DNA of 64,000 nt. Source: Clytia hemisphaerica (taxonomy: Eukaryota; Cnidaria; Hydrozoa; Leptothecata; Clytiidae). Location: contig CACVBU010000538.1 in assembly GCA_902728285.1 (NCBI GenBank), forward strand, positions 461,141 to 525,140, given 5' to 3'. This document shows positions 8,329 to 57,646 of the stretch, piece after piece. The notes under the pieces are model-generated. The model made no database searches. It was not told where the DNA came from and saw only the letters and a list, made by a program, of their open reading frames with translations. Within the stretch, counting starts at the first letter, position 1, and every line of letters begins with the position of its first letter. A program made the translations under genes and the position numbers.

Positions 8329-8678
8329 GTGGCTTAATGGGATAAACTTTTGCGGGGATTAAATTTTGCTGATTTCGCGGATTTGGGTGTCATCCGCGAA
8401 ATTAAGTCTCAATGGAAATTTGGAAAGGCCTCATCTGCGAAATATTTCTAAACAAAACTCAAAATTTGTCAAACAAATACTTTTTGAATGTTTACTGGCA
8501 TCAAAGAAGTGCTAATAATGTGTACATATTTCAACAACCAAAATGCACGATTTGACAGTTAAGTCACAAAATCGTGAAAATATTGCCACCCAATAATGCC
8601 ACCCGCGAAATTAAGTCCCCGCAAAATTTTTAAATTTCGCGGGTATGCCCAATCGCGAAAGTTTATCCCATTAACGAA
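8329..8678. repeat. Palindromic element with CGCGAAA words (~350 bp)
   Basis: Ends are TTAATGGGATAAACTTTTGCG on the left and CGCGAAAGTTTATCCCATTAA on the right, an inverted pair. Inside, CGCGAAATTAAGTC and variants recur in both orientations. No coding sequence. MITE-like. Confidence 0.75.
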
Positions 8679-9189
8679 ATTTTATCCGGACAATCAAAAA
8701 CGGCGCATCATGGCTTCGCTATTGGCAAGTTTAGAAAAAAATAAATTTATAAGAACTTGGAAATATTGACTTCTAAATGTTTATCTCCTTTAGCTCCAAT
8801 TTTGAACTTTTTAGTTGAGGATGAGTGGGCGGGGGATGGGCTTGGTTATTTAAGCAAGAAAGTGCATGTGTAATCACTTAGAAGAGCTAACCTTCCAGCT
8901 GGTTTATTTATTCGTTAAGATTATTTCTCATACTCGCTCTGCAATAGATTTATTGCTTTGCTTTCTGATCTGTTCTTATTAGTAGTTTGTGGGCAACGTT
9001 CGAACACAACTAACTCAACAAGCTCATCTTTCACATCTTTTAATCTCTAAAGCCGGAGCTTCCAGCGCAGCTGGTTTATTCTTATTTCATTGGAAAGAAG
9101 AAAGATAAACTTAAATTTTGATCGAAAAATCTTATTATTTGACGAGGGATTGCCAAGTTTACATGCCTTTTTTAGTCCAAATATTTTCT
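8679..9189. other. Intergenic, no gene seen
   Basis: Near 9086-9120, ATTGGAAAGAAGAAAGATAA and the following bases match the arms of the CCGGGTG palindrome (13570-14408), so part of this stretch is a fragment of that family. Nothing else is recognised. Confidence 0.45.
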
Positions 9190-10454
9190 TACAGCACCTG
9201 ACCCCAAGAATGTATTTGAAATTTGAATCAGACCTGAGAGATCTAGATTTGCATTTAAAAAAATATTGAATGTTTTAAACGAAATTTTGAACTCCCAAAA
9301 TCCTTTCCCAGGGGTTAGTTTCATTACTTTTGATAGGTAGGCTAATATTTTTGGTCCTTGAAGTTGACTCACATTTTTGTTTTAACCCCCAGAATGTAGG
9401 TTTGGTTTTATGGCTTTAAATCTAGTAATATTAAAATGTTGATATTTTTTCGATTGAATTAATTATATAACAGGAAATTTTAGAAATATTTTATGCCAAA
9501 ACAATATTCTAAAGAGCTTTTGTTATTCTGAAAATTGTTTTTTTTCGCTTTTTAACCCCCAGAATGTAGGTGAAAAGATTCGGTTGCTCAGACCGAAATT
9601 TCAGTATTCATCGGAAATTTTTGTTCTCTAAGTGAAATTCATACTTTAGAAATACACTCTGACAAAAAATTAACAAAGATATTAATTTTATCGTGCTACA
9701 AATGATGAAAAGTAAAAGAAAGGACGAAAAGAAGAGACAAGAAAGTTGTTTTTATTTTGTAGGTTGAAGATTCTGTGTTAAAATATGTGAATAATGTAAC
9801 AACACCCCTGCCTCGCAGCCCCGGTGGAACTTTTCCCACATCGGTTAAAAATTTTTCTACTAAATTCCCAATGGGGATAGAAATTCTATTGTTCCAAACT
9901 TAGGCAAATTTTCTGATTTGGCTGGGGTCCCAGCGGGTCTGGGACACGTCGTAAAAGCTTAGGATGCCAACATTAATCATCTCTCAGGAAATACTTTCAT
10001 GTTATGAAAGTACAACAAAAAAGTTTTATATAATTTGACAGACTTTTTATGTCGGGTTATAAAGGCTCCCAAATTGTAGGTCAGCTAACCCCAAAAGGTA
10101 GGTCAAACATTTCGTCAAAATATCTAACTTAGAACAATAAATATTGAAATGGACTATTTTCCACATTTCCTTAGTTCATTAGGAATAAGAAAATACCCTA
10201 TCATCATAACTTAATTCCAATAGATTTCGATTTAGAGAGGATTTATTTAAAAAATGTCTCAATTCGAGTAGTATCCAATCAACTTCGATTCAGATTTTCG
10301 CCTGAAAAAATTAATTCAAGTTAAAATTTTCTGTCCAGAAATAATCAGTAATATGTAACAGTATGCTCTGAAACAACTTTTTATGAAGTTGAACTATCGT
10401 TAGGGCTACCATGCTAAAAATGAGAAACCTACATTCTCGGGGTCAGGTGCTGTA
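9190..10454. mobile_element. TA-flanked palindromic element with GACCCC.AGAATGTAGGT words
   Basis: The ends are inverted: TACAGCACCTGACCCC at 9190 and GGGGTCAGGTGCTGTA ending at 10454, consistent with a TA target duplication and a Tc1/mariner- or pogo-type nonautonomous element. The end word recurs inside as AACCCCCAGAATGTAGGT at about 9385 and 9555 and, degraded, at 10064-10101. A fragment of the CTCACAGCCC family is nested at 9806-9958. No transposase frame is present. Confidence 0.7.
9806..9958. repeat. Fragment of the CTCACAGCCC / TCCCAATGGGGAT element
   Basis: CCTCGCAGCCCCGGTGGAAC, CCCAATGGGGATAG and GGCTGGGGTCCCAGCGGGTC match the element at 25198-25480. It sits inside the 9190-10454 element. 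Confidence 0.55.
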
Positions 10455-13177: not shown

Positions 13178-13390
13178 GGCTTTTTTATAAGAACAATTTA
13201 TATAAGAACACTTAGGCTTTGCTGGCCAAAATGTTAAGAACAAAAAGTTGAGAATATTAAGCCTTTGCAGTCAGAAAAATGGACTAAAATGCTCACAAAG
13301 TGGTAAAAATAAGAACATGTTAAGAATATGCTCAGACTTAAAACTTAAAAAGTTAACAACATCCGAAGGCTGTTTTTATAAAAAAACGTG
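13178..13390. mobile_element. TTATAAGAAC palindromic element (AAGAAC subtype)
   Basis: Left end GGCTTTTTTATAAGAACAAT, right end TTTTTATAAAAAAACGTGC. The word AAGAACA recurs five or so times inside, with TTAAGAATA once or twice. It belongs to the family at 19642, 21319, 21669, 36559 and the split copy around 55003-55930. Confidence 0.7.
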
Positions 13391-13568: not shown

Positions 13569-13569
13569 T

Positions 13570-15080: not shown

Positions 15081-15887
15081 TTTGCCATTTTTCCCAATCA
15101 CAGATTCCCCCACTACACCCACTAGTCAAGCTTTTAACACGCGGGAATATCAAACTTTACTTCCTTTTATTAAAGTTTTTGTAAAGTATTACGGTCCAAA
15201 ACATTTGTCCAGGATTAGACAGGTTTTTGGAAACAATACTATATAGTCAAAAAATTTTAAAGAAAATCGCTAGTTCAAACTTTAAAGGCTTATTATCTCC
15301 GGATCTAGAAGGAGTTAGAAGCTCGTTTATAGCCCGTTGAATAGCTTAGAGTCTCCTCTTTCTTTTAGGCGCCTTCAGCGCCGTCCGATTCAGAAAGGGC
15401 GGGGTGGGCGGCGGCTAAGGGGGGGGGTAGGTAAGGGAAATTAAAGCAATGATAGAAAAGTGCCGAAGGGTTAAACTTCAAACTAATTCGCTGGAGGACA
15501 GAATCAAGTTAATCAAGGCCAATTTTGGAGGTTCTTGGATCACTCGTTGACCAAAAATGGTCAAAAAACGGTCAAAATCTTAAAAAAGTGGATTTTTGTC
15601 AAATTTTTGCATTTTTTTACTTTTTAGCTTAAAATCTCGCTGAAAAGACTCACTTTTGATGTTTTTTTGCTTGGCCATTAAGCCCTATCCGATTCCTACA
15701 AGTTAGACCAAAAATGACGATTTCTAACTCAAACTAGGCATTACAGGAGGGCTTCGCCCTCCTACATAGCCCATGTCTGATATATACGACATTAGCACTA
15801 AAAGGGTTAAGGAACATTGTTGTAAATTAAATTTGAAGGTACCTGTGTATGTTCGTCGAATATACGTCAACCATTAGTGAACCTCCT
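15081..15887. other. Intergenic, no gene seen
   Basis: A small perfect hairpin, AGGAGGGCTTCGCCCTCCT, lies at about 15746. A G-rich tract at about 15400-15430 has four or more G runs. No gene or paired element ends are recognised. Confidence 0.45.
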
Positions 15888-16012
15888 TAAAGGAAGAAAT
15901 TTGGCGGGAAGAAAATTTGGTGGATTTGGCGGATTTGAAATCAAGTTCCCCCAAAAATTTATTTTTTCTGCCATCTGCCAAATTAAATTCCCGCCAAAAT
16001 TTCTTCCTTTAA
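15888..16012. repeat. Palindromic element TTAAAGGAAGAAATTTGGCGGG
   Basis: TTAAAGGAAGAAATTTGGCG on the left is mirrored by CGCCAAAATTTCTTCCTTTAA on the right; the total is about 125 bases. Inside, TTTGGCGG and GATTTGGCGGATTTG repeat the end word. Confidence 0.8.
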
Positions 16013-17263: not shown

Positions 17264-17620
17264 ACACGCTTTTTCTTTTATAAGAATTTACTTTGTAAAG
17301 AATATTCATGATGGAAACTGTCCAAAAAAATAAGAATATGCTAAGAATTTCATGATCGTGAAATTTAGACTGAAGCTACTAAGAATACTATTTTTAGAGC
17401 ATTTTACCATGAAATTGCCAATTGTTCGCCAGCAACGCTAAAAAATAATCACAAAAATGCCCAACTCTTGCTTGACTTATATATTCCATGCTACATTAAG
17501 GCTGGGTTTGCATCCTAACCTAAGAATACCGTAAAGATATTTCAGAATGATTATTTTTCCTCAAAAAGTTAAGAATATTCATGTTGAGTTGAAAAAATAC
17601 CATTCTTATTAAAAAGCGTC
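17264..17620. mobile_element. TTATAAGAAT palindromic element (AAGAAT subtype)
   Basis: Left end ACACGCTTTTTCTTTTATAAG, right end CATTCTTATTAAAAAGCGT. The internal words are AAGAATA, AAGAATT and TAAGAATACCG, consistently with AAT where the AAGAAC subtype has AAC. Sister copies lie at 29031-29335 and 42409-42680. Confidence 0.75.
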
Positions 17621-18630: not shown

Positions 18631-19641
18631 TTTGATTCCACTGTTGGGTTGTTATAGCGCATATTACAGCTCCTCTCTCAATGAGATATGGGTCCCAATA
18701 GTGCAAAGTTTTTCCTAAAATATAACAATCTTGTCAATGGTCCGATGAGAAATTTTTGCCTGGCCTAATTCGCGGGTCCCCTCTCAAAAAAAATTTCAAA
18801 TCATATCTACTTTCGAACCGCAATCACATGTGGTAAAAATTTCCTAAAGATTGGCAGTCCCATACTATATTCTGCAAAAAACATGGCATATATAAATTTG
18901 CTTTATGTCAGTTTATGTAGAAACGTCTGTAATACCCGGGCAATACCCAGAATAATTGTTTACTATATGACGTCATGAAACCAGATATTTTGATTGACAG
19001 GTCATTCTGAAATCGAAATGTAATTGGTTATCGTTTTTAGTACGTAAATTCGCACAGCATGTTGGGATAAATATTGAACTTCTCTTTAAGGATTTTCGAC
19101 AAGGCTTAGCGACAACTTGTTAATTGATAACGTGTTTTACTAAAGCTTACAAACCATATTATCTAGGCCTTAAGCGCTGAAAGTCTTATTTTGATTTTTG
19201 CAGGCTTGTACTTAAGACGTCTTTGGAGACAGCTAAAATCTTAGGATAAGAAGCAAATTTGATTTTTTGGTTGTAACGAAATCTAAAGTTTGATCAGATA
19301 GAATTGCGAAATTTTAGATACTATTTTTGTCAATAGTTTTAGGAAGATAACTTTTAAAATATTGATATATGGTTCTGGTTCTCCACTTAATCGAGTACTC
19401 TTATGGCATTGATTTACCACACTTGTTTTTTTACTATTTCTGTCAGAAATATTCGTTTAGAGAGCGATTTTTAATCTTTCCGTAATTTGGATCGACGCAT
19501 GAATGGATCTGCGAGGGTCACTGACTTTTATAAATCCTGAGCTATATCTGCCTTCTTCGATATTAGTTCTTTTTAAAGTGGTGCCTGCAAAGAAACTGTT
19601 ATATTGAAATTTTGCCTAACCTTTAACGACGCCTAACAAAT
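18631..19641. other. Intergenic, no gene seen
   Basis: Nothing recognisable beyond a short stretch near 19590-19640 (TTTTGCCTAACC) that resembles the middle of the inverted-repeat element at 38993-39164. Confidence 0.4.
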
Positions 19642-19804
19642 GCACGTTTTTTTTATAAGAGCAAACTATATCTGGACATAAGACTTCTATGGCCGAAACA
19701 TTTAGAACAAGTTAAAAACTTTCCGGACTCTAAAACACCCAATTCTCAAGAAAATGGACAAAAATACACAAAAATGGCAAAAACAAACATAAAAAAACGC
19801 GTAT
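19642..19804. mobile_element. TTATAAGA palindromic element, short copy
   Basis: GCACGTTTTTTTTATAAGAG opens it and AAAAAAACGCGT closes it. The interior aligns with the AAGAAC subtype (GCAAACTATATCTGGACATA, AGACTTCTATGGCC) but lacks part of the right half. Confidence 0.6.
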
Positions 19805-20827: not shown

Positions 20828-20927
20828 CCCAGCCGACACACAACGCTGTTTCAACGTTCATTTAACGTTCATTTAACGTTATATGAACATTAGAATAACG
20901 TTAAAACAACGTTCTGTGCCAGCTGGG
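20828..20927. mobile_element. CCCAGCTGG / AACGTT MITE, copy 1
   Basis: CCCAGCCGACACACAACG on the left and GTTCTGTGCCAGCTGGG on the right form the inverted ends, with TA on both sides. AACGTT recurs every ~11 bases between. Confidence 0.85.
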
Positions 20928-21129
20928 TATCATACCACCCGAAAAGACCGGAATTCGACCCCTGTTCCGTTATTTTTATAAGCAGACATGAATTAAAATC
21001 TACAAAACACTGCATTATGCCTGAATGTTGCGCAAGTATGAAACACCGTACAGCTATTGTAATTTAGTTCTTTATTTTTTGATATAAACAGACATGGGTT
21101 GAATTCTGGCTTTTTTGGGTGTTTCCGAT

Positions 21130-21227
21130 CCCAGCTGGCACATAACGTTTTTTCAACCTTTATCTAACGTTCACAACGTCAATATAACGTAAGATCAACG
21201 TTGAAACAACGTTGTGTGCCAGCTGGG
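21130..21227. mobile_element. CCCAGCTGG / AACGTT MITE, copy 2
   Basis: CCCAGCTGGCACATAACG to CGTTGTGTGCCAGCTGGG, 98 bases. AACGTT-like words are spaced 9-11 bases and the whole folds as one hairpin. Confidence 0.9.
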
Positions 21228-21318
21228 ATAGGAAAACTGACATAATCTCAACTTACACATTTCAAGAGTAGGGGTAGCTTGGCGCCAACGCCAAACCTTT
21301 ATAGAGACTGGACTAAAA

Positions 21319-21574
21319 TACACGTTCTTTTTTATAAGAACAAACTATATAAGAACATAAGTCTTCGATGACCAAAATGTTAAGAACAAGGTAAGAACAT
21401 ATTAAGGCTTTGTGGATTCGAAAACACCCAATTTCTCAGGAAAATGGTCAAAAACATTCACACAATGGTCAAAATAAGAACATGTTAAGAGCATTTTTAG
21501 GCTTAAAACTCAAAAAGTTAAGAACATCTGAAGGCTTCAAAAATTTTGGATGCTCTTATAATAAAAAACGTGTA
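21319..21574. mobile_element. TTATAAGAAC palindromic element (AAGAAC subtype, best copy)
   Basis: Ends TACACGTTCTTTTTTATAAG and CTTATAATAAAAAACGTGTA. The interior repeats ATAAGAACA, TTAAGAACA and GTAAGAACA at least six times. A useful reference for the subtype. Confidence 0.8.
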
Positions 21575-25480: not shown

Positions 25481-25589
25481 GTGCTCCTCTTCCTAGCTGG
25501 CACACAACGTTGTTTCAACGTTAATCTAACGTTCACAACGTCCATTTAACGTTAGATGAACGCTGAAACAACGTTGTGTGCTCCTCTTC
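25478..25589. mobile_element. AACGTT MITE, copy 3, with damaged right end and 15-bp flanking repeat
   Basis: The MITE body starts at 25493 (CTAGCTGGCACACAACG) and runs to GTTGTGTG, where the usual CCAGCTGGG end is missing. TGTGTGCTCCTCTTC occurs both at 25478-25492 and 25575-25589, overlapping the MITE's own TGTGTG. Confidence 0.75.
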
Positions 25590-26202: not shown

Positions 26203-26301
26203 CCCAGCTGGCACACAACGTTGTTTCAACGTTTATCTAACGTCCCACAACGTCCATTTAACTTTAGATTAACGTTGTAACAACGTTGTGTGCCAGCTGG
26301 G
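26203..26301. mobile_element. CCCAGCTGG / AACGTT MITE, copy 4
   Basis: CCCAGCTGGCACACAACG to CGTTGTGTGCCAGCTGGG with perfect ends; 99 bases, AACGTT-like words every 9-12 bases. Confidence 0.9.
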
Positions 26302-26989
26302 TCGCTAATTTTTGGACCACCCTTGTTAATCGTTGAATAACATTATTTAATTCTGTCCCTGGAGGGGGGGTTACTTAGGCAAATCGGTTACAGGGACGTA
26401 CCGTTGGTCAGGGTCCCTTTTTTAGAATCTGAAGACAAATTTACTAATCTATATTTGGGACCCTGTCAGTTGGCTTTTTGACCGTAGAAAGAGATTTGCC
26501 ATGTGAATAACCAAGAAAAAAGGGCTTCAAAATCGACTAAAGTAATAATTCATCCTCCATCGTTATAGTAATAAAGAAAAGTTTTGTAATCTTTTGTATA
26601 GTCCACTTTTTTGATTTGGCAGCTTTTTTTGTCAATCTCTCTAAACGGTCAAAGCCACTCGGACATATATTATTACGTCATTGTAACAAAAAGTCAGTAA
26701 TTTACTTCCTTGAAGAAGAAATTCAATGTCAAATTCCTTCAAAACAATCTTTCTCATGAGAAAAAACCATCTCACTCTTCAAGAATACCAATCTGGTGAC
26801 TTCCGTCAGCTCATCCGACTTAACCGACAATTGACGTGACGACGGGGACTGAAAAAAACTCGATGTGCTTCTCCATTTCACCTTTTTTGTTGAATCAACA
26901 ATAACGTATATTATTTTGCCACTAGGTAACTTCATATTGATTGTATTCATGACGTAATGTTCTCTACGGAAATACCCCGGTTTTAGCCA
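26302..26989. other. Intergenic, one weak open frame
   Basis: A 73-codon minus-strand frame (26950-26729) starts at a true ATG and has a charged, serine-rich composition, but no domain or neighbouring exon, so it is not called as a gene. GTTCTCTACGG..ATACCCCGG near 26959 is a fragment of the element at 51172-51322. Confidence 0.4.
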
Positions 26990-28040: not shown

Positions 28041-28045
28041 AAAGT

Positions 28046-29030: not shown

Positions 29031-29335
29031 TACACAATTTGTTTTATAAGAATACACTTTGGCCAAAAAATGGCCAAAAAATTAAGAATAATGCTAAGAA
29101 TATCACCATCATGGAATTAGGCTACTCAAGCTAAGGATTGCCATTTTTAGAGCATTTTCAATTATAAAAATACCATTTTATGCTTGAAACGTATGTACTA
29201 AATGTTAAATCTAGTCTGAATTAGGATCCTAACCTAAGAATGCTGTAAGAATATTTTAAGATGATTTCCCAAAAAAGTTAAGAATATATCCATGATGAAA
29301 TGGATTTACACCATTCTTATAAAAAAAGCGTGTAT
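29031..29335. mobile_element. TTATAAGAAT palindromic element (AAGAAT subtype)
   Basis: Ends TTTTATAAGAATACACTTTGG and CATTCTTATAAAAAAAGCGTG. The interior words AAGAATA recur at least six times. It aligns in reverse to 42409-42680. Confidence 0.8.
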
Positions 29336-29558
29336 TGTGTCATTTAGATGTTAAATGTATTGTTTGAAGTGTGGAGCCAGAGGCCCATTTAAGTAATGGA
29401 TTTTACTTGAACTTGGTCTTAAGGACCCAAGAAATTTTTTTTGAAATTGAAACTTACAGAGCGAGGTCTTTTGTAAGAGTTTTAAGCTGTAGGAACCATA
29501 GCTTTCGTTCAAATAGCAGAAAGCTTCAAAAAAAGGTATAGAAATTTAAAGAGTACTT
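29336..29558. other. Spacer before SINE copy
   Basis: Nothing recognised. Confidence 0.4.
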
Positions 29559-30646: not shown

Positions 30647-30817
30647 CAGTGGTCTCACACTAATTCGAACTTCTGTTATTCAAATCTTTCTATATAATTT
30701 GAACTAATTTGCCCCCGTCAAGAAGACTCATTCGTAAAATGCTTTCTATAATTCGAATCTTTCCTCCGTATTTCGAACTAATGAGATTTCTCCTTCAAGA
30801 ATTAGCGAGAGCCGACA
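30647..30817. repeat. CTAATTCGAAC element, copy 1
   Basis: CACTAATTCGAACTTCTGTT, CTTTCTATATAATTTGAACT, TTTCTATAATTCGAATC and GAATTAGCGAGAGCCGAC recur in copies at 35560, 39610 and 57200. The end word TTCGAA is repeated four times inside. Confidence 0.7.
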
Positions 30818-33728: not shown

Positions 33729-33826
33729 CCAAGCTGGCGCACAACATCGTTTCAGCGTTCATCTAATGTTCACAACGTCCATATAACGTTAGATGAACGT
33801 TGTAACGACGTTGTGTTCCAGCTGGG
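33729..33826. mobile_element. CCCAGCTGG / AACGTT MITE, copy 5
   Basis: CCAAGCTGGCGCACAACATCG to CGTTGTGTTCCAGCTGGG, flanked by TA on both sides. Confidence 0.85.
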
Positions 33827-33997
33827 TAATAATAATCATAATTTCATTCTAAACTAAAGTACTTTTATCTTTGATTTAGGTTTAAATTATCGATGGTACT
33901 TTAAAAATTGAGGAGACAAATTTTTCAGATCCGCTTAAGTTGTTTGTCAAAATTTCTTCCCACAATCTCACTAAACGTGAGAAAAATAACTTTGTTA

Positions 33998-35557: not shown

Positions 35558-35760
35558 TGTCAGTCAAATCTCTATAATTCGAACCTCTGTGATTAGCATC
35601 TTTCTATAATTCGAACTAAAACGTCGGTCTCTCAAGCGCTGAAAGTGGCATATCATACTCCCTACAGAATACTATACTACTTTTAAACTTATAATTCGAA
35701 TGTTTCTCTAATTCGAAGAGGACTCACTTGAAAATCGAATAAGAAAAAATCAACTGTAAC
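35558..35760. repeat. CTAATTCGAAC element, copy 2
   Basis: CAAATCTCTATAATTCGAAC, TTTCTATAATTCGAACT, ATAATTCGAATGTTTCTC and CTAATTCGAAGAGG recur within 200 bases. Confidence 0.6.
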
Positions 35761-36041: not shown

Positions 36042-36111
36042 CCCAGCAAGCACACAACGTTGTTGTATAAATGTCAAATGGACGTTGATACGACGTCGAG
36101 TGCCGGCTGGG
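36042..36111. mobile_element. AACGTT MITE, 70-bp deletion form
   Basis: CCCAGCAAGCACACAACG to CGTCGAGTGCCGGCTGGG with one central block missing. Confidence 0.8.
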
Positions 36112-36558: not shown

Positions 36559-36915
36559 TACACTTTTTTTATAAGAACAACTACAAATTTTGAAGCCTTT
36601 GGATGTTCTTAACTTTTTAAATTTTCAGCCTTAAAATGTTCTTAAAATGTTCTCATTTTCGCCATTTGATGAGTATTCTTGTGTAATTTTCTTAAGAAAT
36701 TTGGTTTAAAGTCCATGAAGCCTTAATATGTTCTAAACTTGTCATCGCGGAGAATGCAAGTCGAACGTTTTTGACGTTTATCGAATCCGGGGGTTTGACG
36801 TCACTTTTTCGACGTCAATAAAAGAGAATTTTGAAGTTTTTAGCTATGTTCTTGATTTTCTGGCAAGGGAAGCCTTATGTTTTTATATAGCTTATTCTTA
36901 TAAAAAAAAACGTGT
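36559..36915. mobile_element. TTATAAGAAC palindromic element (reverse orientation)
   Basis: TACACTTTTTTTATAAGAAC to TTATAAAAAAAAACGTGTA. The interior words appear as TGTTCTTAA (reverse of TTAAGAACA). Confidence 0.75.
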
Positions 36916-37158
36916 AATTTGTTGATTAATTTCATGGTGTGGTCGTTCAACTTGGTTTACAACATCTTTTAAATGAGCAATGAGCTGATATCTCATATGC
37001 CAGATATTGTATAGTGCGTATCCTTTCTTCGTATTTCTTTCTTCAATAGTTGTGCAAACCCTTGCATAGGTAGATCTACTCTGTATTTTTCAAGCAATAG
37101 CAGTTGAAGTGAAATAATCCGGCATCTTTGTTGGAAAGTAGACCAGTTCGGTACTTGT

Positions 37159-37608
37159 CAGTCTGTGCCACTAGCTCGATCGGGAAGATTCTTCCAAAAT
37201 GGGAAGATTCTTCCGAAATGGGAAGAACCTTCCCGAACGGGAAATTAAGTTGACTCCCGAACGGGAAGATCTTCCCGCTTTTTTACTTACCGATGACTTT
37301 TCGATCGTGGTTGAAACTTCCCGTTTGGGAAGTTAACGCAGTTTTTTCAAAATTAAACCAAATTTCCACGGTAAAGTTTATTTTTCTTTCGGTGAAAAAT
37401 CTTAAAATTTGATGCTTTATCAGCTCCAAAATGTTTCAACTTTCGCCGGTCATCGTACATTTTCGCCGAAGATTCAGTCATTTTTCATCTTCCCAAAGAG
37501 GAAGAATCTTCCCAATCAGGAAGAAAACATTCGCCTAAGTTCTTCCCGTTCGGGAAGTTTCTTCCCATTTCGGAAGAATCTTCCCGATCGGGTTAGTGGC
37601 ACAGACTG
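37159..37608. mobile_element. CAGTCTGTGCC palindrome with CTTGT target duplication (450 bp)
   Basis: CAGTCTGTGCCACTAGCTCG at the left and TTAGTGGCACAGACTG at the right are inverted ends, bounded by CTTGT at 37154-37158 and 37609-37613. The arms iterate GGGAAGATTCTTCC, and both flank and arms look fresh. Confidence 0.85.
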
Positions 37609-39547: not shown

Positions 39548-39609
39548 TTTTTAAGAAGGTTGGTTGGGTTGTACATATATCACGTGGTTTTCTCTGTAAT
39601 TTTCTATTA

Positions 39610-39781
39610 CAATGAACTCTCGCTAATTCGAACTTCTTTTATTCGAATCTTTCTATAATTGAAACTAATTCTCAGTCCCATCAAGAAAACACCTCTTAAA
39701 ATACTTTCTATAATTCGAATCTCTCTGTAATTCGAACAAAATATATTTCCCATTTGAGCTCGAATTAGCGAGAGTCGACTG
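39610..39781. repeat. CTAATTCGAAC element, copy 3
   Basis: GAACTCTCGCTAATTCGAAC at the left and GAATTAGCGAGAGTCGAC at the right are inverted ends. TTTCTATAATTCGAATC and CTGTAATTCGAAC lie between. Confidence 0.8.
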
Positions 39782-41277: not shown

Positions 41278-41355
41278 CCCAACCGGCATGCAACGTTAAA
41301 ACAACGTCCATTTGATATTCATTGGACGTTAAAACAACGTTGTGTGTTAGCTGGG
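41278..41355. mobile_element. AACGTT MITE, 78-bp deletion form
   Basis: CCCAACCGGCATGCAACG to CGTTGTGTGTTAGCTGGG. AACGTT words remain every 10-13 bases. Confidence 0.8.
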
Positions 41356-41790
41356 TTTTTGTATTTGATAAATTTGGGTACACCAAGGCTTGTATTGCAA
41401 TTGTTACGATTATTAATCGGCAAATGAAATAATTAAGGTTATTTTTGTGGGCGAAGCTAGCACAGTTAGAATCTGTCAATTTATGAAAAATTTTAAATGA
41501 ATGGGAGATTTTTATTTTTTTTTTTGAAAGTCCAAGTACCCAATTTCGAGATATTTTTGTAACATTTTTAAGTTTTTTTTGAAGTGCCCCTAAAACAGAA
41601 CCTAAGGATCACTTAGAGTTTTCTTATAAGCCGTTTGATAAGAGGCACTATTACGATAAAAAGATTTGCCGGGATTTTTTAGAGTTTAGTTTAGTAGAGA
41701 TATGATTTTGATCAAAAGATGGATTTTGGGGAGGGACTCATTAGAGAACTTTCTAGCCTGTATGATAATTTATTTCTTCATTATAGTGAC

Positions 41791-42130: not shown

Positions 42131-45100
42131 GTAAGAAAAACTTATATCTTTAATTTTTATTTGTCAATCCCTACGCATAAATGAAGCCGTATTAACCCTT
42201 GTTTTGAACTGGGCGCGTCTCACAGTCTTATTCTACTGTTGCCGTATAGAATAATGCTCTCAGGGGCCTAATAAACAGGGTTGGAAAATGTTTCAAATTC
42301 TAAAAAATGGGGGTCCTACTTGTCTGTCTGCGTTGTTGGAAATTATGCTTAAAAATTCCTGAAATAAGGTTAAAAAATATTCTAGGTCTCTTTTTCGTGA
42401 TCTACTAATACACGCTTTTTTTTTATAAGAATGGTGTTTTTTCATTTCATCATGAATATTCTTAACTTTTTGGCAAAAATCATCCAAAAATATTCTTACG
42501 GTATTCCTAGGTTAAGATCGAAATTGGCAATCTACAGGTTAAAATGCCTTTAAAATGGCATTCTTAGGTTCAGTTGCTAAATTCCATGATGGTGATATTC
42601 TTACCATATTCTTAATTTTTTGGCCATTTTCATCATGGACATTCTTATAAAGTGTATTCTTATAGAAAAAAAAGCGTGTAGTCAATCTGTAACGTAATGA
42701 AAACTGAGAAGCACGGAGGTAAAGAGTTTAGGGTACTAGTGTAACATAGAAAACTGCATATCGAGCTTCGTTTTGTTCATGTAATTATCGTGCAATTTTT
42801 TAAGCCCGTTTGTTGTCTTATGATTTACATGTGTGAACTTTGGAATTTCAAAGTCTTTTATCTTATGAGGGGGTCTAGTGGCGCGTGTACACCTATTATG
42901 TTTATTTAAGTGCGTTTTTTTATTGCTCGTGCCTAAAGACCTTACACAGCGGGCACTGTCATTGGATCTTCATTGTCAGCCGTATTTGAATCGCAATTCA
43001 AGAAATAAAAGAAAATAGAGATCACTGACCCTAATTCTAATTGACCACAGATATCAAAGCAATTATAACTGTGATTTAAATCTCTTTATGGTTGAAGTTC
43101 TGAAATAGATGCTTTTTTGTGAAAAATGACGACGGGTCTTATTTTTTTGCTGGATTTTAGGATATTTTGCCACGATGAATGACTTTTTACTAGCTTTCAG
43201 TAAGGATAGTGGTTCGATGCTCTTTTTTTGCTAGTTTGCTTACAAACTAACAACCTAAAACTTTCGCTGTTGCAGCTTAATATTGACTAAGTGGAGTCTC
43301 TATAACTCGAACAGACACGGGTAACACATGTTTGTTTCATCTAAGAAAATTTTGAGTTATTGAGTAAGGTTTAGGTATTTTATTATTAGAACATAAAACT
43401 TGTTCGTGTTAAGGAGACATTCGAGTTATAGTCCAGCCGGCACGCAACGTTAAAACAACGTCCATTTGACATTCATAACGTCCAAATAACGTTATTTGAA
43501 CGTTAAAACAACGTTGTGTGCCAGCTGGGAGAGGTTCGAGTTAAACAGACTCCACTGTATCTTAAATGAATTAGGTGGTAAAGTTTTTTCAAAGCCTTGC
43601 GCACCTGTCATTTTTTAGTATTATTTGGCATGTCTCTGCCAAACTCTTTAGAAAAACAAAGTAAACAAAAATTCGCCTCAAAAATGTCAAAAATGTATCA
43701 CTCGTGGTCATGAATGAAAAAGGTGTTTTTTAATGCGGGTTTTCTTGGCGGCGCTTTTATCTTTCCACCTTTGAAATGATGTGTTAAGTGTTGATTTGTT
43801 TGTAAGGTAGCGGGCTCTCACAATAAACAAACATTTCCAAATCATTTACTTTATAAGGTACAAAATCCTACTCAAGTCAATAACTTTAAAATTTAACTAT
43901 ATCATGATTTACCAAAAAAAATGAAACGTGCCTCGCTTTCATCAAGTTTCAGCAGAAACAAAACAGTGGTTTTGTAAAATTCAAGTCTTAAGAACTAATT
44001 AAGATAATTGTGATGCATTTAGTGCACTTTACTGCTATGTAGATATGGAGACCTTTTCTCCTTTCTGATATATGATGTTTGGATGTTTGTTGTTCAACTC
44101 TGAGTAAACATAAAGACGCTATCAAAATAAACAGGTCAAAAAAACTTTTTATGTACAAAAAGCACGCACGAGTACTTGTTTATCTCAAGAGGGGTTCTAT
44201 AGCGGGTTATATAGCGCTCTAGTTACACTTTAGCGACTATTTTAAAGCTTCCTGTTAGTCCTTCCGCTTGTGAAGACCTGTGATACACTAGCTAGCACTC
44301 TATCGGGATTCGTGCAGCGTTGTAGATCTCTTTTATCGTTCTTAGGATGCCCGGAGAGGTAGTGGCACTCGATGTAAGCGATATACCGTATGTGCGGCCT
44401 TTAAGGGTCCTTTTCAGGTGTTTTGGGTGAAATTGGGGAAATTTCATATAAACTTGGTTTGGATGTCAGGACGTCGTTGTATGGACGTCATTTTGACGTT
44501 TTGACCAGCTGTGTTTGAATTCAGCCTAGGAAATCCATTAATTTGACAATCCTGCCGTTTCAGCAAATTTGAGTAGAGCAGGATATTGCACTATGAGTTC
44601 CCTAAAGTATCTTCGGAAGAAGGGTTTTCATTTTTTCGAAACCCACTTTAAAAGTTAAATGCTCTTATATGAGACTTCTTCTCTGTTAATAATAGCCCCT
44701 TTCGGCACCTTACAATACAAGACATGTCCACTTGAATCGTCTAAGAGTTTCTTGTTTCTCGATGAAGCAATTTTTTGACATTTTTTAAGCCTTTTTATTT
44801 TCTAATCTGGAATAATCCACCATCCGCCATCTTCTATTGTAGTTACGTCTATTTGGCTTTTCCAGAAAAGAAAGAAAGGATATAACATGTTTTGGAAATT
44901 TAAACCCCCCCTCCCCTGGACAAGCATTAGAAATTACCCCCAAACAGAGAAAGTTTACTCCCCCCCCCCCCGAAAAAGGCAAATTTTATAGATTTTTACT
45001 ACCCCCGGATACTATATCCTCAACCCCCATGTACGAACATTTTCAGGAAGAACCCATTTTAGGGAGCTTTCAAAAGCTATTTTTGCGAGAACTTTTGATA

Positions 45101-48100
45101 TATAGTCGACTTTTTCTAAATTTAACTTCAATTTTCAATCTTTCTGTAATTCAAATCCTCCCGTTAGCTTTGCGACTTTTACGAAGTCTCAGAAATTCAA
45201 TTCTGGACACCTGAAAATCGAGCTACCAGTTGTTTGTCATTTTTCGCGGATTTTTTTATTTTCGAATAATTGCATCCGCATTATGATTATTGCATGAATT
45301 TTTCTTGAACCTTTAATCCTATGAAGCAATCTTTTTCTTAAGTTTGTATGTGTGTTGTTTTTGTTTGCAAAATTAAAAGTCCGCTATATACACACAGAAC
45401 GGCGACAGAGGTATCAGGTTTTATCGAGAACACTTCTTTTCTCCAATTTCAAACATTTAAAACGAAGTGGTTTTTTCTCCTGCCCTTTTTTTGTAATTTG
45501 AACATTTTCTTTCTCTCCCAATTTTTATTTCTTACACATGAACACTCTTTTAAACTCTTGTTTTTAGTTTCGAGTTTCTACTTATTTTTGGATTCAGCCC
45601 TGCGTCAATTCTAAGTGCCTGAATGCGCCTGTGTACACGTTTACTAGACCTAGCAACGACTCTCGCTCAGGGAAAGTAGACTTTTTTTCGTTGATTTGAC
45701 TTGTTGATATGGCGCACAGCGTCATCTAAAAGTAGTTTAACTTTCTTTTAAGGTTAAACGTCGAAACCAGAGGTTAGGGTGAATAGAAGGGATTCGTTTT
45801 TTTCAATCTAGAACTGAAGGAGAGTTACCGTAAAATAAAAGTCCCTGAAAGACAGACCAATCACCACCCTAAAAATCTTTGACAATGAAATTATACAATA
45901 GAAAATCTTCTTTTCAAGTCTATGTCAACCTGACGACAGAGCATAATTTTCTTCAACCACGTCACAAAAGACGGAGACTGAAAGGTCATCTCGTAATTCT
46001 ATTTTCATACTCGAACTGATTATCACTTTCTCGTTATGATGAACATTTATCTTTTCACACTGTTCAAAATCTGTAAATCTTTCATTTTGGTGATTATTGT
46101 TATATGTAGAATTTTTTCATTGTTTTGAAATGAATGAAATTCGTGAATCGGTTAAGATTTGTCAGTCGATCTGTTACTTATGACCTCATTGACCAAATAA
46201 CTCTCATCTCCAGTCCTCCGTACATACTGGTGCAAGATAAGGTCCATGTAATGTTCATCTAATGTTCATAACGTCCGTTAACTTAAAACTCGTTTTCTTT
46301 ATCTTTACTCAAACTAGCATGCGTCCGTGTTCCTTTATAGGTACACCAATAGATTCTAACCCAGCTGGCACACAACGTTGTTTCAACGTTCACCTAACGT
46401 TATATGGACGTCGTGAACGTTAGATAAACGTAAAAAAACGTTGTGTGCTAGCTGGGAAGATAAATTAAACCTTTTTTAAAAAGCGTTACACTTCAAATGT
46501 GACACGCCCTTGAATTGTGGGTCTCGTAAAATCTGGTTACAAGCGAGGTTTTTGATCAAATCATTGTGTCCTAGTTAAATATTTTGGTCAAACATTTAGG
46601 TAAATTGTAATTGCAGATTTGATATTGTTGGGTATTTCTTCTTTGATGTCAGCGACTGTGAGAATATTTATCAAAATGATTTGAAGTGATTGTTTTAACA
46701 GAATCAGGAATAGACCATTCCACTCTTCTTTTATGAGAACCAGTAAATTATTGCTGAGACTCGATTTTTCTTTTCTTTATTTTTTGCCATTTGAGTCTAA
46801 AGTTTTTCAGGGGTAAATTTAGGTATTTTTGGCAAAATTAAGCAATTCCAGGCTTAGTTTTGTTCTTAAAATGTTCTTTTTTGGGCACTTTTGAGCTTCG
46901 TTGTTTTTATATAACTGTTCTTATAAGAATATCAGAATTTTGGATTAATTGAGAATTGATCTGATTTTATTGTGGTATTTTAAAAAATTGGTAAACAAAT
47001 TCTTTGGTAGAACTTAAAGAAGCTTGGGACCTGGTTGGGTCACTGAGGCAAGGGTATAAAGATTGACTGGCCTAATTTGAAATTTAGCATGTTTTCCCAT
47101 CATTCTATAATCGTCCAGAAATCTCGCAAAACATCTGAATTCCCAATTTGATTGATTAAAGATATGATGTACTTGATTGGATAACAGTTTTCTGATGAGC
47201 TTGTTTTTACCATAAAAACTCAAAGTTTTCTCATGCCTTGAAAATAAATATGAATGAGAAATATCAGAAAAATAAACGAGATTAATTAAAAATAGGAGCC
47301 ATTTGATACGTATAACTCATCAATATGGTTTAGACCCAATTTTCACATGACGAAAAATTAATATTAACCTTCCGCAATTTGATTGGTCAAATGAGTCAGT
47401 GGTTTTGTTTTCTATTTAACCAACAAAAACAGGACGATAAAAAATCAAAAATTAAACCTATTTTAAAGATTTAGTAACTCTTGATTAGATTTTCATTAAA
47501 AATTTTCTTGCTTGTTTTTTCTTACCTTTTTTCATGACACCTTTGAAAGAGGGCCGCCAGAAATGATTGATGTATACTTTCTCTAGAAACTAGAGTTTGT
47601 CCATTCACTCGTTCATTTGTAAAATTATTTCCATTTTCGTTCGTTCATTCGTTCGTATGACTCATCCGACACGCTAAAGCTATAAAGGTCGGGATATTTT
47701 CAAGCCCGCGTCAAGGATATTGCAGTATGAGGCCTGGACTCTAGCCCTCGTTTTTGGGGATTGGCGAAATATTTTCCGACTAGGGTATTAGGGTAGTTGA
47801 GCCAGACTGGGAAAGCGGCACATCGAACGCCGACTTTCATTCCTCTCCGATGGCAAATTGGCCCCGCTTCCTCTAGAGTTTTAGCGTTGGCGACTTACTC
47901 ATTCATTCACAGAATTTATCCAGTCATTCATCATTCATCATTCACTTTATCATTATATGAGTTCATTCATCGATTCATTGATACAGTTTTCATTCATAAT
48001 CTACTTTTAAATGACGTCAAAGTCACACAGCCTCGCTATCATGCTGTGATCAAAAATACAAACCTCACATTTAATGTTTTTTACCGCTACATTTGGAAAT

Positions 48101-52070: not shown

Positions 52071-52521
52071 TTTTACTCAGCAGCATAAGTTAAAAGTATA
52101 AGAAGGCAAAAAAATCGCAAGCACCTGGAAGCCTGAAGTCTTCATATCTGCCTTTAATCGCAAAGAAAAATGGTATTAAAGTTGCCTAATGTATAATAGG
52201 CCTATCAGCGTAGCAATGTGTCATATATATTTTGATAAATTTTTTTTAACTGCGTTTATTTTTTTTTGTAAATACATTAAATTTTTTCTTTGTCTTGTTT
52301 ATTCTTTTTTAATAGGAAAAATTATAAGTTATATTGTTTCATATACCTCAAAATGAGAAATATCCTAAAATAAAAAAATAATGATTCAAAATTATCCCTT
52401 TTGCGACTGATTTATTTCCTCAAATCGTAACCTAATAATTCGTGAAGTTGAAAATTACTTTGAAATTCCTCCTCCCAGTAAACTCTCTCGTGGGATCAGA
52501 GGACATGAATCTGCATTTAAA

Positions 52522-53195
52522 GTCTATTCACGATAAGTGTGCACTCTTTTTTCTTTTACCTATAACTTTTGAAGGAATTCTTCAATCTTTATAAATTAGG
52601 TATCATTTGAAAGATATTAGTGAGTGGAACAATTTGAAATAAAAAATCTTCAAAAAAAGTTCTGAAAATGAAGATGAAAATGAAGAAGAAAAAATGAAGA
52701 TCTTGTAGAAAAGTGCTATAACTTTCATTTTCACTGGAGAGATTCTTTGATCTTAGGAGGTCATCACTGTGAAAAAATTTCATTAAAATATTTATTCAAT
52801 ATAAAGTTATGATACAAAGTAAATAGGTGATTGGCCCCAAAAAAACAGCAAAAAACTGCAGAAAACAGCGTTTTTAGACGTCAATCAGCTTATAACTTTG
52901 TTTGATATCTTTTGACTGAATGATTATTTTTGAGAAATTTTTTCACAGTGATGACTTTCGATGATCAACGATTCACTTGAGTGAAAATGATAATTATAGC
53001 ACTTTTCTACAAGATCTTCATCTTTTTCTTCTTCATTTTCATCTCCATTTTTAGAATTTTTTTAAAGATTTTTTTATTTCAAATTGTTCCACTCACTAAT
53101 ATCTTTCCAATGATACCTAATTTATAAAGATTGAAGAATTCCTTCAAAAGTTATAGGTAAAAGAAAAAAGAGTGCACACTTATCGTGAATAGACT
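52522..53195. mobile_element. TTAA-type full palindrome, copy 2 (~675 bp)
   Basis: AGTCTATTCACGATAAGTGT to ACACTTATCGTGAATAGACT, flanked by TTAA on both sides. It matches the 28046 copy throughout. Centre near 52858 (AAAAACTGCAGAAAACAG). Confidence 0.85.
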
Positions 53196-53219
53196 TTAAT
53201 ACTGTCAATTTGAAGCTTT

Positions 53220-53478: not shown

Positions 53479-53480
53479 GG

Positions 53481-54595: not shown

Positions 54596-54945
54596 TTAAA
54601 AGAGACTTCTGGCGATTAACAATTTATTTGGATGTCTTCTTGGATGGAATCGCTCGTGAAATTTAACAACAGAATCCCGTTTCTGTTGATCACGTTGACA
54701 ACAAGTTTTTGCACAGTATAGATGGACCCTAAAATGTTCAAGCAGGTCTGAGGTATCTTCACAATCTCTTGTAGCGCAACTATAATTATTGTCATCAAAA
54801 TTAGCACATCTTGAGGCCGAGGTCGGCGTACAGGAGCCGCAAGAGACGGGGCACCTGGCATCGTAGCCAGCGTCACATGTTGATGATAGAATGTCTGCTT
54901 CATAGCCTTTCAAGTTTTCGCAGGATGATAAATAATCGCCACAAA
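54596..54945 (-). CDS. ShKT gene exon 3 (last exon)
   Basis: Acceptor CCATCATAG|TTTGTGG and stop TAA at 54598-54596. It contains modules two and three and an Arg/His/Lys-rich tail of about 33 residues. A second overlapping open frame (54616-54903) is a shadow. Confidence 0.8.
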
Positions 54946-57646
54946 CTATGATGGAATATTTTTGATTTTACGACCGCTCTGTTAAGTATAACGCCTGTAC
55001 GCGTTTTTACAAGAGCAAACTATTAAGCAGTTATTGGACAAAGTCGAATCCAATATGAAAAAATATTGGGCGTGCGAGAAAAGATATTGGACGAGGCTTC
55101 GCCGACTTTGAAAAAGAAAAACTCTGTAACAGCTTTTATACTTGCTCTAGAAAGGTTTTCGACTTTGAAAAGAACAAACTCTGTAACAGCTTTTATACTT
55201 TATGATGATTATAACATTATAACGCCCCACCATCAAATGGAACAATGGTTCCAGTGGGTCTATGAGAAGGAGTGTTGTTACAGAGTTTGGGCTTTTGGTA
55301 GTTCATCATACTTTTATACAGTTTAAATACTTCTTATTTATTATCCGACGCGCGTAAATAGCTGTCCAATATTTTCGAATATATAGCTTCCATGGAGGCT
55401 ACATATTTCAAAAATTGACGTCACACAACGAGTTCAATGACAATTGAGCATCTTCTTTTTGACGTTACGTCACAAAACAAAATAAGACTTTTGAATAAAA
55501 AACTACCAAGAAACCAGATTTACAAGCTTATAAATTGGAATTATGTTTGAAAACGAGAAATACTTAAGCGATGAACGGATAATAAACCATTTATTTGGAC
55601 GCAGTCTCATCCAATATGAAAAATATTGGGCTACGAGAAAAGATATTGGACTCGGCGAAGCCTCGTCCAATATCTTTTCTCGCACGCCCAATATTTTTTC
55701 ATATTGGATTCGACTTTGTCCAATAACTGCTTAATATAAGGGTTCGATGATCAAAATATTAAGAACAAGCATTTTAAGTCTTGAAGGGCTCTCAAATATA
55801 CAATTTCTTAGAAAATTGCACAAAATAATCACAAAATGGTGAGTGAGTGAGAAAATTTTGGACCTAAAACTCAAAAGCTTTAAAAACTTCCGAATGCTTT
55901 GGGTGTTCTTATAAAGAACGTGTTTATGTCAAAGATGGAAGGCCTATCTCACCATCTAACGAAACAGTTTATATATATAGGATAAGTGGCGAATCAAACT
56001 AAGAACTCTTAGCAAACAGCTTCTTGGAGCCAGTAGGACTAGAGTATCAACAAATTTTGGCTTATTTTTAGTTATACCTCCGCTGATGGGTGTAATAGGT
56101 TTCTTAGTCGTCGTCGTAGTTGTGGTGGTGGTGGTCGGTTTTTTTGTCGTTGTTGTCGTTGTGGTGGTGGTCGGTTTTTTCGTCGTCGTTGTTGTCGTAG
56201 TTGTAGTCGTTGGCGTGGAGCATTTGTTACAAGTGACGGGGCATTTCATGTAATATTTCGATAGTTTACATAAGTCGTTCACCAAATCCTTGGCTAAGAA
56301 ATTGAAGCCATGACAAACACACTTGTCAACGCACTGTCCTGGATTGGAAGCAAGGAAAAATATAGTAAAATGAAAGTTTAATTCTGTTCTTGATCAGTGT
56401 CTGCTTATGAACATGATGATATTAAACTTATTACAAAAATTCGTTCATCGCCTTCCCTTTTTTTTGGGGGGGGGGGGGGGGGATCTTGTGCAAACAAGGG
56501 GTACAGGGATGTACCGCTGGTCAGGCATATGTTTTTTTATAAGCATAACGCTTATAAGCATATGAAGGCTCAGATTTGAAGAATTCCTAAGCATAACATG
56601 AGCATATATGTCAGCCTAAAATATTTTTCAAGTGGTCATTTTTATCTGTTTAAAAAGGTTTGGTAGAGGTCAAGTAAAAAATAAGACATTCCACGGCTAG
56701 CTACATTCCACGCTCCCAAAATCTGAGCAAATTTTTACAAAATTTTTGAAATTTCATTAAAAACTTGGCTCGGGGTGAATCATAAGCATGATTCTTAAGC
56801 ATATAATAAGCATAAACTATGCCTGGAAGCTTTGAACACTTAAGCATACATGAGCCTGACCAAGGGGCATACACTTGCTTATAAAAAAAAACATGTACCC
56901 CCTGGAAAATGGCAGAATTTGCAAAATAACTCTTGGAAAATATTCTTTTCATGTCTTAAAGTGAGGGTGGACGAACTAAAATCAGTTGTTCGCCCTCTGG
57001 AAATTCAAGAATAACTTTTTACCCCCTAAAAGGTTGTTTCAACATTCATGTGATATTATTATTTGGATGTTATCCCATTAAATACCATCTTCAGACCTTC
57101 CCTCACAGGACCGAAATAATTGAGCAATCTCATATGATGACAGTGGTATTTAACGGGTTAAAAAGGCGTCGGTTTGAAGTTTAGAGTCATGACTTAAAAA
57201 CAGTTGACTCCCTCTAATTCGAAATTGCGAGACCCAATTTTTTATTCAAATTAGACAAAGAATCGAATTACAGCTGGAAATTTGTTTCTGTTACCTTATC
57301 GGGGAAAACTTCGTCGGGGAAAAGTGACGAATATTTTCCCCGACGAAAATTTTCCCCGGCCTTAATGCGTTTACCAACTACCAGCATGTGACGAATTTTT
57401 GCCCGACGAAAATTTTCACCGACGAAAATTTTCCCCGACGAAGTTTTCCCCGATAAGGTAATTGCAACAAATTTCCAGCTGAGGGGACCAATATTTTTAA
57501 GTTCGAATTACAGAAAGATTCGAATAATAGAGAATCGAATTAGAGAGAGTTGACTGTATTTCTAAAAAATCTAACATTTTAATTCTATTCTTACCTTTGA
57601 CGAAGTTTAAACCAAGAAAGCATAAAACCAAAGTCTTCAAATACAT
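54596..57646 (-). CDS. Secreted ShKT-domain cysteine-rich protein, 3 exons, 220 aa
   Basis: Exons 57646-57595, 56338-56078 and 54945-54596 (minus strand) join in phase 1 at both junctions and total 663 bases. Exon 1 encodes a signal peptide of about 17 residues. Exon 2 holds a first ShKT-like module (residues about 20-57, seven cysteines, ending CP.TC..C) and then a Thr/Lys-Pro linker to about 100. Exon 3 holds a second ShKT module (cysteines 106, 113, 128, 136, 140, 143), a third, atypical six-cysteine module (151-187, ending C...CC) and a basic tail. ShKT modules occur in sea-anemone potassium-channel toxins but far more often in non-toxic secreted enzymes and matrix proteins of cnidarians and nematodes. 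The Thr linker and triple modules favour a mucin-like or matrix protein. No toxin role can be claimed from sequence. Confidence 0.8.
55003..55930. mobile_element. AAGAAC-subtype element split by a palindrome, in intron 2
   Basis: GTACGCGTTTTTACAAGAGC with CAAACTA sits left of 55021. TAAGGGTTCGATGATCAAAA, ATATTAAGAACAAGC and the end TTCTTATAAAGAACGTG sit right of 55736. Removing 55021-55736 restores the usual AAGAAC element order. Confidence 0.75.
55021..55736. mobile_element. Nested palindrome TTAAGCAGTTATTGGACAAA (~715 bp)
   Basis: TATTAAGCAGTTATTGGACA and TGTCCAATAACTGCTTAATA are exact inverted ends, consistent with a TA duplication. Inner arms read ATATTGGGCGTGCGAGAAAA. The left arm also has a direct repeat (AACTCTGTAACAGCTTTTAT at about 55120 and 55179). 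The same 20-base end occurs at 110-135 in the window start. Confidence 0.85.
56078..56338 (-). CDS. ShKT gene exon 2: first module and Thr-rich linker
   Basis: Acceptor TTGCTTCCAATCCAG|GAC and donor AGCGGAG|GTATAA, phase 1 in and out. The linker contains runs of ACN threonine codons separated by KKP three times. On the plus strand it is a GTCGTT/GTGGTG simple repeat, so length variation between individuals is likely. Confidence 0.8.
56466..56482. repeat. 17-base G run
   Basis: A run of T then 17 G in intron 1 of the ShKT gene (C run on the coding strand). Confidence 0.9.
56525..56897. mobile_element. TTATAAGCAT palindromic element (AAGCAT subtype)
   Basis: CATATGTTTTTTTATAAGCA to CTTGCTTATAAAAAAAAACATG. 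Inside, AAGCATA occurs about ten times, always with GCAT where the sister subtypes have GAAC or GAAT. It lies in intron 1 of the ShKT gene. Confidence 0.8.
56898..57040. repeat. GGTGGACGAACTA repeat, copy 1
   Basis: GTGAGGGTGGACGAACTAAA, ATCAGTTGTTCGCCC and AGAATAACTTTTTACCCCC match 58250-58325. Confidence 0.65.
57200..57557. mobile_element. CTAATTCGAA element hosting a nested CCCCGATAAGG palindrome
   Basis: ACAGTTGACTCCCTCTAATT and AATTAGAGAGAGTTGACTGT are its inverted ends. The host also mirrors CAGCTGGAAATTTG with CAAATTTCCAGCTG next to the inner element. Confidence 0.8.
57294..57458. mobile_element. Nested CCTTATCGGGG palindrome, TA-flanked (165 bp)
   Basis: CCTTATCGGGGAAAACTTCG to CGAAGTTTTCCCCGATAAGG, bounded by TTA and TAA. 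CCCCGACGAAAATTTT recurs three or four times inside. Confidence 0.85.
57595..57646 (-). CDS. ShKT gene exon 1: signal peptide
   Basis: ATG at 57646 begins MYLKTLVLCFLGLNFVKG, a compact signal peptide, and ends at the consensus donor AAAG|GTAAGA in phase 1. This fits the phase-1 acceptor of exon 2 directly. Confidence 0.8.

Follow-up and report, generated by a model that had tools for sequence, protein, structure and literature searches.

Small elements with iterated, family-specific words in a stretch of the Clytia hemisphaerica genome

A 64,000-nucleotide stretch of DNA from the hydrozoan Clytia hemisphaerica (assembly GCA_902728285.1, contig CACVBU010000538.1, positions 461,141 to 525,140; C378:461141-525140), which we call the window, holds many small elements in which a short word near the ends recurs inside. 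Here we find that this iteration exceeds chance, that the elements duplicate their target sites, orient their words and change in length by whole units, that two sister families differ by a concerted switch of their word, and that the words of one family, AACGTT, are phased along the helix. These elements are probably non-autonomous DNA transposons (miniature inverted-repeat transposable elements, MITEs) of several superfamilies, each iterated word being the putative site of a trans-acting protein specific to that family, with the DNA-binding domain of its transposase as the likeliest binder. From sequence evidence we infer that a protein binds the words and that this protein is the transposase.

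Iteration of near-end words

The first-pass annotation of the window had named seven iterated words at seven places. Direct reading found the described words at all seven, and each word is enriched in at least one window copy. For 21 window copies, all occurrences of the named word across the element, those at the ends among them, were compared with 1000 shuffles each under two null models: dinucleotide shuffles and shuffles that rebuild a palindrome (palindrome-preserving). Enrichment at p ≤ 0.01 was found in 17 of the 21 copies with the former and in 15 with the latter. Three of the copies missed by dinucleotide shuffles are decayed (at 36042, 41279 and 19635) and the fourth is broken by an insertion (57200-57556); palindrome-preserving shuffles additionally missed those at 33728 and 35561.

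Because the named words had been picked by eye and post hoc, we added an unbiased test. It covered 264 kilobases (kb), made up of the window and two 100-kb samples (contigs C232 and C94; samples A and B), and scored 65 non-overlapping, N-free palindromic elements of 70-900 base pairs (bp) for recurrence of any 8-letter word from the outer 60 bp, with a cut at p ≤ 0.01. In this test, too, iteration is above chance: a near-end word is iterated in 17 of the 65 elements under palindrome-preserving shuffles and in 26 under dinucleotide shuffles, against 0 and 2 of 65 length-matched random segments. The architecture is therefore present in up to one quarter of the palindromic elements scanned. Among the 17 passing elements, two (20805-21256 and 25492-26301) are merged adjacent AACGTT copies, two ATCGAACT elements in sample A resemble longer arrays, and a fifth (sample B 52128, p 0.010) has low complexity. 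Dense ATCGAACT arrays were seen at L012:5417-5768 and L014:1213-1595, with 26 and 25 words (≤1 mismatch) and steps often of 9-10 bp. Among copies of the named or related families, the strict test missed window elements at 33727 (p 0.42), 46360 (0.135), 15887 (0.02), 42409 (0.015) and 59936 (0.075), and sample elements B 72094 (0.065), A 42975 (0.74) and B 87606 (0.43, its span set too wide). Iterated-word families beyond those of the annotation are TAATCGAT, GGAAATAT, TTTTCGCG, TTGCCGAA and TCATCTAT. Most window families have few copies in the sampled 200 kb, and the window is thus comparatively rich in them.

The elements have the features of MITEs: inverted ends, a target duplication, short length, no coding sequence and many similar copies. 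They had all been described as palindromes of iterated words. That description suits the AACGTT and GGGAAGATTCTTCC (GGGAAG) elements, the words of which are self-palindromic or nearly so, and which in form resemble Foldback/Galileo elements, with their long inverted ends built of internal repeats. It does not suit the TAAGAAY, CCGCCAAA and CCCCGACG families, in which the words run mostly head-to-tail, or the GACCCC element at 9190..10454 on the forward strand, which is 1.26 kb long with 25-bp ends.

A word switch between sister families

The TTATAAGAAC family of the annotation, with the word TAAGAAC (C family), has a sister in the window with TAAGAAT (T family). C-family copies lie at 13180..13390 (forward; four C words and one T word in the stretch read), 21316..21566 (forward; six exact C words, no T word) and 36564..36923 (reverse, a longer copy; three C words, one T word), with a decayed copy at 19635..19800 (forward; no exact words, enrichment above 0.01). 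The T-family copies, all forward and all lacking C words, lie at 17264..17619 and 29038..29336 (seven T words each) and 42409..42680 (eight).

Further copies were taken from the whole genome (417 megabases, 951 contigs). For the C, T, CCCCGACG, CCGCCAAA and GACCCC families, the best 40 candidates per family, the query counted, were scored from 984-3266 first-look candidates (best 40 of 3266 for the C family and of 2254 for the T family, with one query copy each). For each of the C and T families, 20 copies were fetched from the 39 non-query places, from the top of the list with few skipped. One T-family sequence, L088 (C869:175450-176150), in which a TAAGAAT element appears to have inserted in another TAAGAAT copy, was excluded from the counts, leaving 19.

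The 20 C-family copies contain 112 TAAGAAC and 5 TAAGAAT words; the 19 T-family copies contain 0 TAAGAAC and 169 TAAGAAT. Spacers, meanwhile, have diverged between the two families. The C consensus has seven C words and no T word, and the T consensus nine T words and no C word. Their right arms align (88 bp, 72.7%, expect value (E) 9e-9), and the four right-hand words are spaced at 11, 31/33 and 15 bp in both families alike. All consensus words except the left-most point in the same direction (6 of 7 in C, 8 of 9 in T). Elements of both families end in CACG. Ends could be parsed in 9 of the 20 C copies, 8 of which have TA/TA flanks, and in 17 of the 19 T copies, 15 of which do. Selection of the top matches to a query may under-represent copies with mixed word types; the window copies at 17264 and 29038 were found by self-comparison of the window rather than from the top-match list, and so are without that bias. 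Given that none of the 169 words is of the C type while T-family spacers have diverged by around 1.6%, the switch is fixed in the copies read. The same two figures argue against general C-to-T decay as its source.

Across the sites of each consensus, information is 2 bits inside the word and drops to about 1 bit or below at 1-2 bases outside it. Hence it is the word itself, rather than any longer unit, that is retained; the spacers inside an element differ while the words stay alike. Words are also better conserved than spacers between copies, as mismatches to the consensus with CpG excluded: 19/698 against 236/2481 in the C family (p 1.5e-10) and 4/931 against 47/3059 in the T family (p 0.007). 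The switch fits binding sites for a protein acting in trans, with the transposase as the likeliest candidate.

Lineages, array length and spacing

A second set of families shares TACCTTA ends. Elements with the word CCCCGACGAA (the CCCCGACG family) start with TA followed by CCTTATCGGGG and have TA/TA flanks in 17 of 20 copies; the window copy at 57292..57460 runs from TACCTTATCGGGG to CCCCGATAAGGTA, with word steps of 15-16 bp and, near-forms counted, two words in one direction and six in the other. Elements of the CCGCCAAA family start with TA followed by CCTTAAAGGAAG and, of 13 parsed copies, 12 read tacc...ggta; the left TA is missing from L089, and L101 is unparsed owing to an altered end base. 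Their consensus holds three exact words one way, on the left, and nine the opposite way (2 and 7 in one copy). L092 and L096, CCGCCAAA copies from different contigs, are alike in their flanks and are therefore probably a single insertion seen twice, perhaps one locus assembled twice. The TTTTCGCG element of sample A (L013:5003-5171, one copy) starts TACCTTATTGG and is likely to be a further member, and a fourth pair with such ends is 712 bp in length (TACCTTAGGGGG). TACCTTA ends are thus common to families of differing words (CCCCGACGAA, CCGCCAAA and, in one copy, TTTTCGCG), which we read as one lineage in which the cut site would be conserved and the recognition words change. In these three and in the CGCGAAA-family element at 8334..8674, neighbouring words are often around 16 bp apart. 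The latter element (ends TTAATGGGATAAAC/GTTTATCCCATTAA; seven CGCGAAAT words with ≤1 mismatch in 8329-8690) aligns to the CCGCCAAA family over 74 bp (77%, E 1e-10); the short CCGCCAAA copy at 15887..16012, its relative in the window, has words with GGCG instead of CGCG. With one CGCG copy read, this pair looks like a second concerted switch.

The annotation had called the families unrelated. A single ancestor was indeed rejected as a general explanation: among 11 representatives compared all-against-all, the only strong matches are C/T and CGCG/GGCG, the remainder being short (E 0.001-0.05), and the differing ends and duplications, for example of AACGTT and the TA families, mean that common descent cannot account for all. 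Three families nevertheless share TACCTTA ends, so that 57292-57460 is linked to the CCGCCAAA family by its ends, as 8334-8674 is by its sequence.

A TA duplication, as in Tc1/mariner-type (Stowaway-like) elements, is found in the TAAGAAY, CCCCGACG and CCGCCAAA families. An hAT assignment, which would call for an 8-bp duplication, was rejected for the TAAGAAY, CCCCGACG and AACGTT copies that were read, because their flanks match over no more than TA or 2 bp. The AACGTT elements lie at 20828..20927 (CCCAGC...GCTGGG ends, seven words at exact 11-bp steps, TA/TA flanks), 21130..21227 (AT/AT), 25492..25581 (right end not found), 26203..26302 (GC/TC, mismatched), 33729..33827 (TA/TA), 36042..36111 (decayed), 41279..41357 (TT/TT), 43433..43530 (AG/AG) and 46359..46457 (AA/AA). 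Of ten copies tried, seven could be parsed at both ends, and six of these have identical 2-bp flanks (TA, AT, TA, TT, AG, AA). CACTA/EnSpm elements have a 2-3 bp target duplication of no fixed sequence. The AACGTT duplication agrees with this, but the CCCAGC...GCTGGG termini are not CACTA-like, and we therefore did not file the family there.

Arrays change in length by whole units. Among 20 CCCCGACG copies, 11 have the full form of 184-185 bp, five lack one 16-bp CCCCGACGAA unit (L032, L034, L036, L037 and L044), three (L029-L031) are missing a block of 19 bp that lies between GTGACGAA repeats, and one (L048) has a tandem duplicate of a 15-bp unit, copied from the neighbouring internal unit and not from the end. 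Shared losses may be inherited rather than recurrent. The GACCCC element at 9190..10454, the ends of which were read as TA followed by CAGCACCTGACCCC and as TA followed by CAGCACCTG, carries ACCCC(C)AGAATGTAGG-like words at its termini and inside; the window copy lacks one of two 3' words that are both present in all seven other copies read. Because loss and gain involve entire units inside arrays, ordinary slippage or unequal exchange would account for them, and dedicated copying machinery need not be invoked.

Word steps are constant in several families, at 11, 16 or 19 bp. In AACGTT elements, 32 of 40 successive spacings between words (≤1 mismatch; seven copies) are exactly 11 bp, and phase coherence is 0.92 at 10.5 bp, the highest of five periods tried (null mean 0.34, 0/2000 as high). 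Across 20 word families, with related ones kept separate, 8 families have an 11-bp spacing, 10 a 16-bp spacing and 14 one of 15-17 bp. A universal helical spacing was rejected. A first pooled test (18 families, entered by hand; 12 periods tried), which omitted two families and some spacings (those of overlapping GGGAAG words and of further TTCGAA copies), had favoured a 5.25-bp period, with 0/5000 draws as high. With all spacings of 9-36 bp in the 20 families, the number of draws as high was 33/5000 at 5.25 bp, 33 at 5.5 bp, 40 at around 8 bp and 2630/5000 at 10.5 bp. Half-turn steps of 5.25 bp are weak and a lead only.

The GGGAAG element at 37159..37608 (one copy) has CAGTCTGTGCCACTAG ends, beginning CAGT, with CTTGT in both flanks and words 19 bp apart near each end. 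Elements with ATTCGAA words lie at 30654..30816, 39608..39779 (with a CTCTCGCTAATTCGAA end) and 57200..57556, with a fragment at 35561..35621. Pogo/Tigger elements have CAGT... ends and a TA duplication; by comparison, the window element at 57200..57556 has ends CAGTTGACTC...GAGTTGACTG, with TA in the right flank and AA in the left. It is split by the CCCCGACG element at 57292..57460 (named at 57294 in the annotation), and this nesting makes the relative ages of the two families readable. A GTCTTCGGC element lies at 59936..60365 (p 0.005 with dinucleotide shuffles, 0.075 with palindrome-preserving ones), a palindrome with an iterated AATAACCC word at 58326..58446, and an element with perfect 85-bp inverted ends and an iterated TCCAATAT word (14 with ≤1 mismatch) at 55021-55736. 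End sequences among the word families include TACCTTAAAGGAAG, TACACGYTTTTTT and CCCAGCTGGCAC. Two near-full palindromes of 0.68 kb (28040-28722 and 52517-53199; 82-87% self-complementary) have no significant end-word iteration.

Elsewhere in the window, three segments at 1-1962 and 6822-7446 are duplicated in the same orientation, 5-7 kb apart, with 96-98% identity, and a tandem repeat of around 150-156 bp at 63214-64000 runs to the window end. A long open frame at 4271-6631 (forward) encodes a class C G-protein-coupled receptor (GPCR) domain (7tm_3) and has one relative at 56% identity; two open frames at 49226-50741 (forward) have immunoglobulin domains.

Explanations and known systems

In the preferred explanation, the strand would be cut at a short terminal sequence, for example between TA and CCTTA or between TA and CACG, and several molecules of transposase would be loaded on the array of internal words. 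Ordinary slippage or unequal exchange would add or remove whole units and so alter array length. Whenever the specificity of the protein shifts, only copies with words that have shifted with it would be mobilized, giving concerted switches between sister families. Of the two mechanisms that the annotation had offered, multiple binding sites and inward copying of end words, the former fits best, given the sister word switch, the AACGTT phasing and the conservation of words in two of four families.

Several observations weigh against this explanation. Pfam scans of 105 open frames, from a list of 125 that reach 110 amino acids or more, found no cut-and-paste transposase; the DNA covered is around 0.07% of the genome. 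Nor did these frames include an autonomous partner, such as a DDE/D transposase gene, with the same ends as the elements described here. A T word occurs once in each of 5 of the 20 C-family stretches, and homology of the left-arm words of C and T follows from layout more than from alignment. In the CCCCGACG family words are less conserved than spacers (11/345 against 22/1660 mismatches, p 0.02), and in the CCGCCAAA family the difference is not significant (3/840 against 28/2729, p 0.09). Overall, of the four families tested, words are better conserved in two, a third has the same trend and the fourth is reversed.

The Pfam matches on fetched DNA are to a Helitron, retroelements and host genes, with rhodopsin-type GPCR and CUT domains also among the frames scanned. 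Integrase-core (rve) matches include known retroelement frames, and identity was settled for one of the last two rve members. One open frame of 1520 amino acids (L016:1328-5887) has Helitron and PIF1 helicase domains.

The words could instead be relics of tandem duplication, that is, minisatellite-like slippage arrays inside MITEs with no function of their own. The whole-unit changes of the CCCCGACG copies, the 3' word missing from 9190-10454, the constant steps and the poorly conserved CCCCGACG words all agree with this. Yet within an element the spacers differ while the words are alike; sister families hold their right-arm word positions with words that differ by one letter; C and T words are better conserved than their spacers; and random segments of the same genome show no iteration (0/65). 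We regard relics as unlikely, if not far-fetched. Less credible still is that a copying process, such as gene conversion, template switching or an end-copying activity, repeatedly rewrites the terminal word inward. Internal words do match the end word of their family, even after the switch from C to T, but the drop in information at the word edge would require tracts of 7-8 bp with almost no neighbouring bases, and the one clear gain (L048) duplicates an adjacent internal unit. With shared sequence ending 1-2 bases past the word and changes made up of whole internal units, the annotation's proposal that end words spread inward lacks support in the form given, and we consider it highly improbable.

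Binding by a host protein (an architectural factor, a silencer or a replication factor), on the sites of which families would converge, could explain why 11- and 16-bp spacings recur in 8 and 10 of the 20 word families and why the AACGTT words share a single face of the helix. Each family, however, has a word of its own that changes with the family, which would not be expected of a fixed host factor, and we think this explanation very improbable. A bolder extension of transposase binding is that several lineages in one genome converged on long arrays of transposase sites at whole or half turns (around 11 and 16 bp), with the protein forming a cooperative filament over the entire element, the word acting as a fast-evolving lock and the transposase as its key, with new families arising when both switch together. 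The shrunken 5.25-bp excess lowers the odds of such a filament, which is quite doubtful.

Sister MITE families one letter apart at every consensus site, of which there are 7-9, would document a natural change in the specificity of a transposase. The switch, and equal TACCTTA ends with different words, would separate the part that is cut from the part that is recognized. Tests then become possible of how a non-autonomous family, once new, gets away from its autonomous partner or keeps up with it, and of why so many sites persist in tiny elements. Among the papers listed by literature searches aimed at a concerted word switch between MITE families, none reports one; the nearest is that on soybean CACTA elements, given which the concept of joint change of motif and protein is not new.

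In the excerpts that we cite, the soybean Tgm CACTA elements have short conserved ends and a short motif repeated near both, four times on the left and 24 on the right; the motif differs between two subfamilies of one species, coevolution of motif and protein was expected by the authors, and the repeats of the related En/Spm are bound by the transposon-encoded TNPA (PMC2613891). The Clytia elements are alike in their conserved ends with word arrays, asymmetric word numbers and words that differ between sister families. They differ in having TA before CCTTA, TA before CACG or CCCAGC ends at 0.1-1.3 kb, in contrast to CACTA ends, a 3-bp duplication and a soybean element of 20.5 kb, and in that the arrays of several families occupy much of the element. 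In Ac/Ds (hAT), several transposase-bound AAACGG hexamers can persist in the subterminal 200 bp of non-autonomous elements (PMC3260210, in the part consulted); there the duplication is 8 bp and the hexamer is the same family-wide, whereas here the duplication is TA or 2 bp and the words change between sister families. The Foldback-like Galileo (P superfamily) has internally repetitive ends, the units of which expand and contract and offer secondary transposase sites; its repeat unit in Galileo F is around 210 bp, compared with steps of 11-20 bp in the sub-kilobase MITEs described here. Its authors, in the same excerpt, regard multiple binding sites as an apparently convergent trait among superfamilies (PMC3573991), so the annotation's premise that ordinary MITEs carry their site at the ends only is too narrow. 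As far as the extract extends, piggyBat (piggyBac superfamily) has a subterminal GCGGGA motif, three times in the left end, and several transposase sites (PMC11707139), although fewer per element than here. Coral CMITEs, also from a marine animal, have an internal region that seems important and, in the portion cited, is more conserved between families than the terminal inverted repeats (PMC2872659); here it is the internal words that vary by family. We conclude that the iterated-word architecture is real and common, that it comes with a clean concerted word switch between two sister families, and that it is of a known kind, the subterminal binding array, here packed so densely that it takes up much of very small elements.

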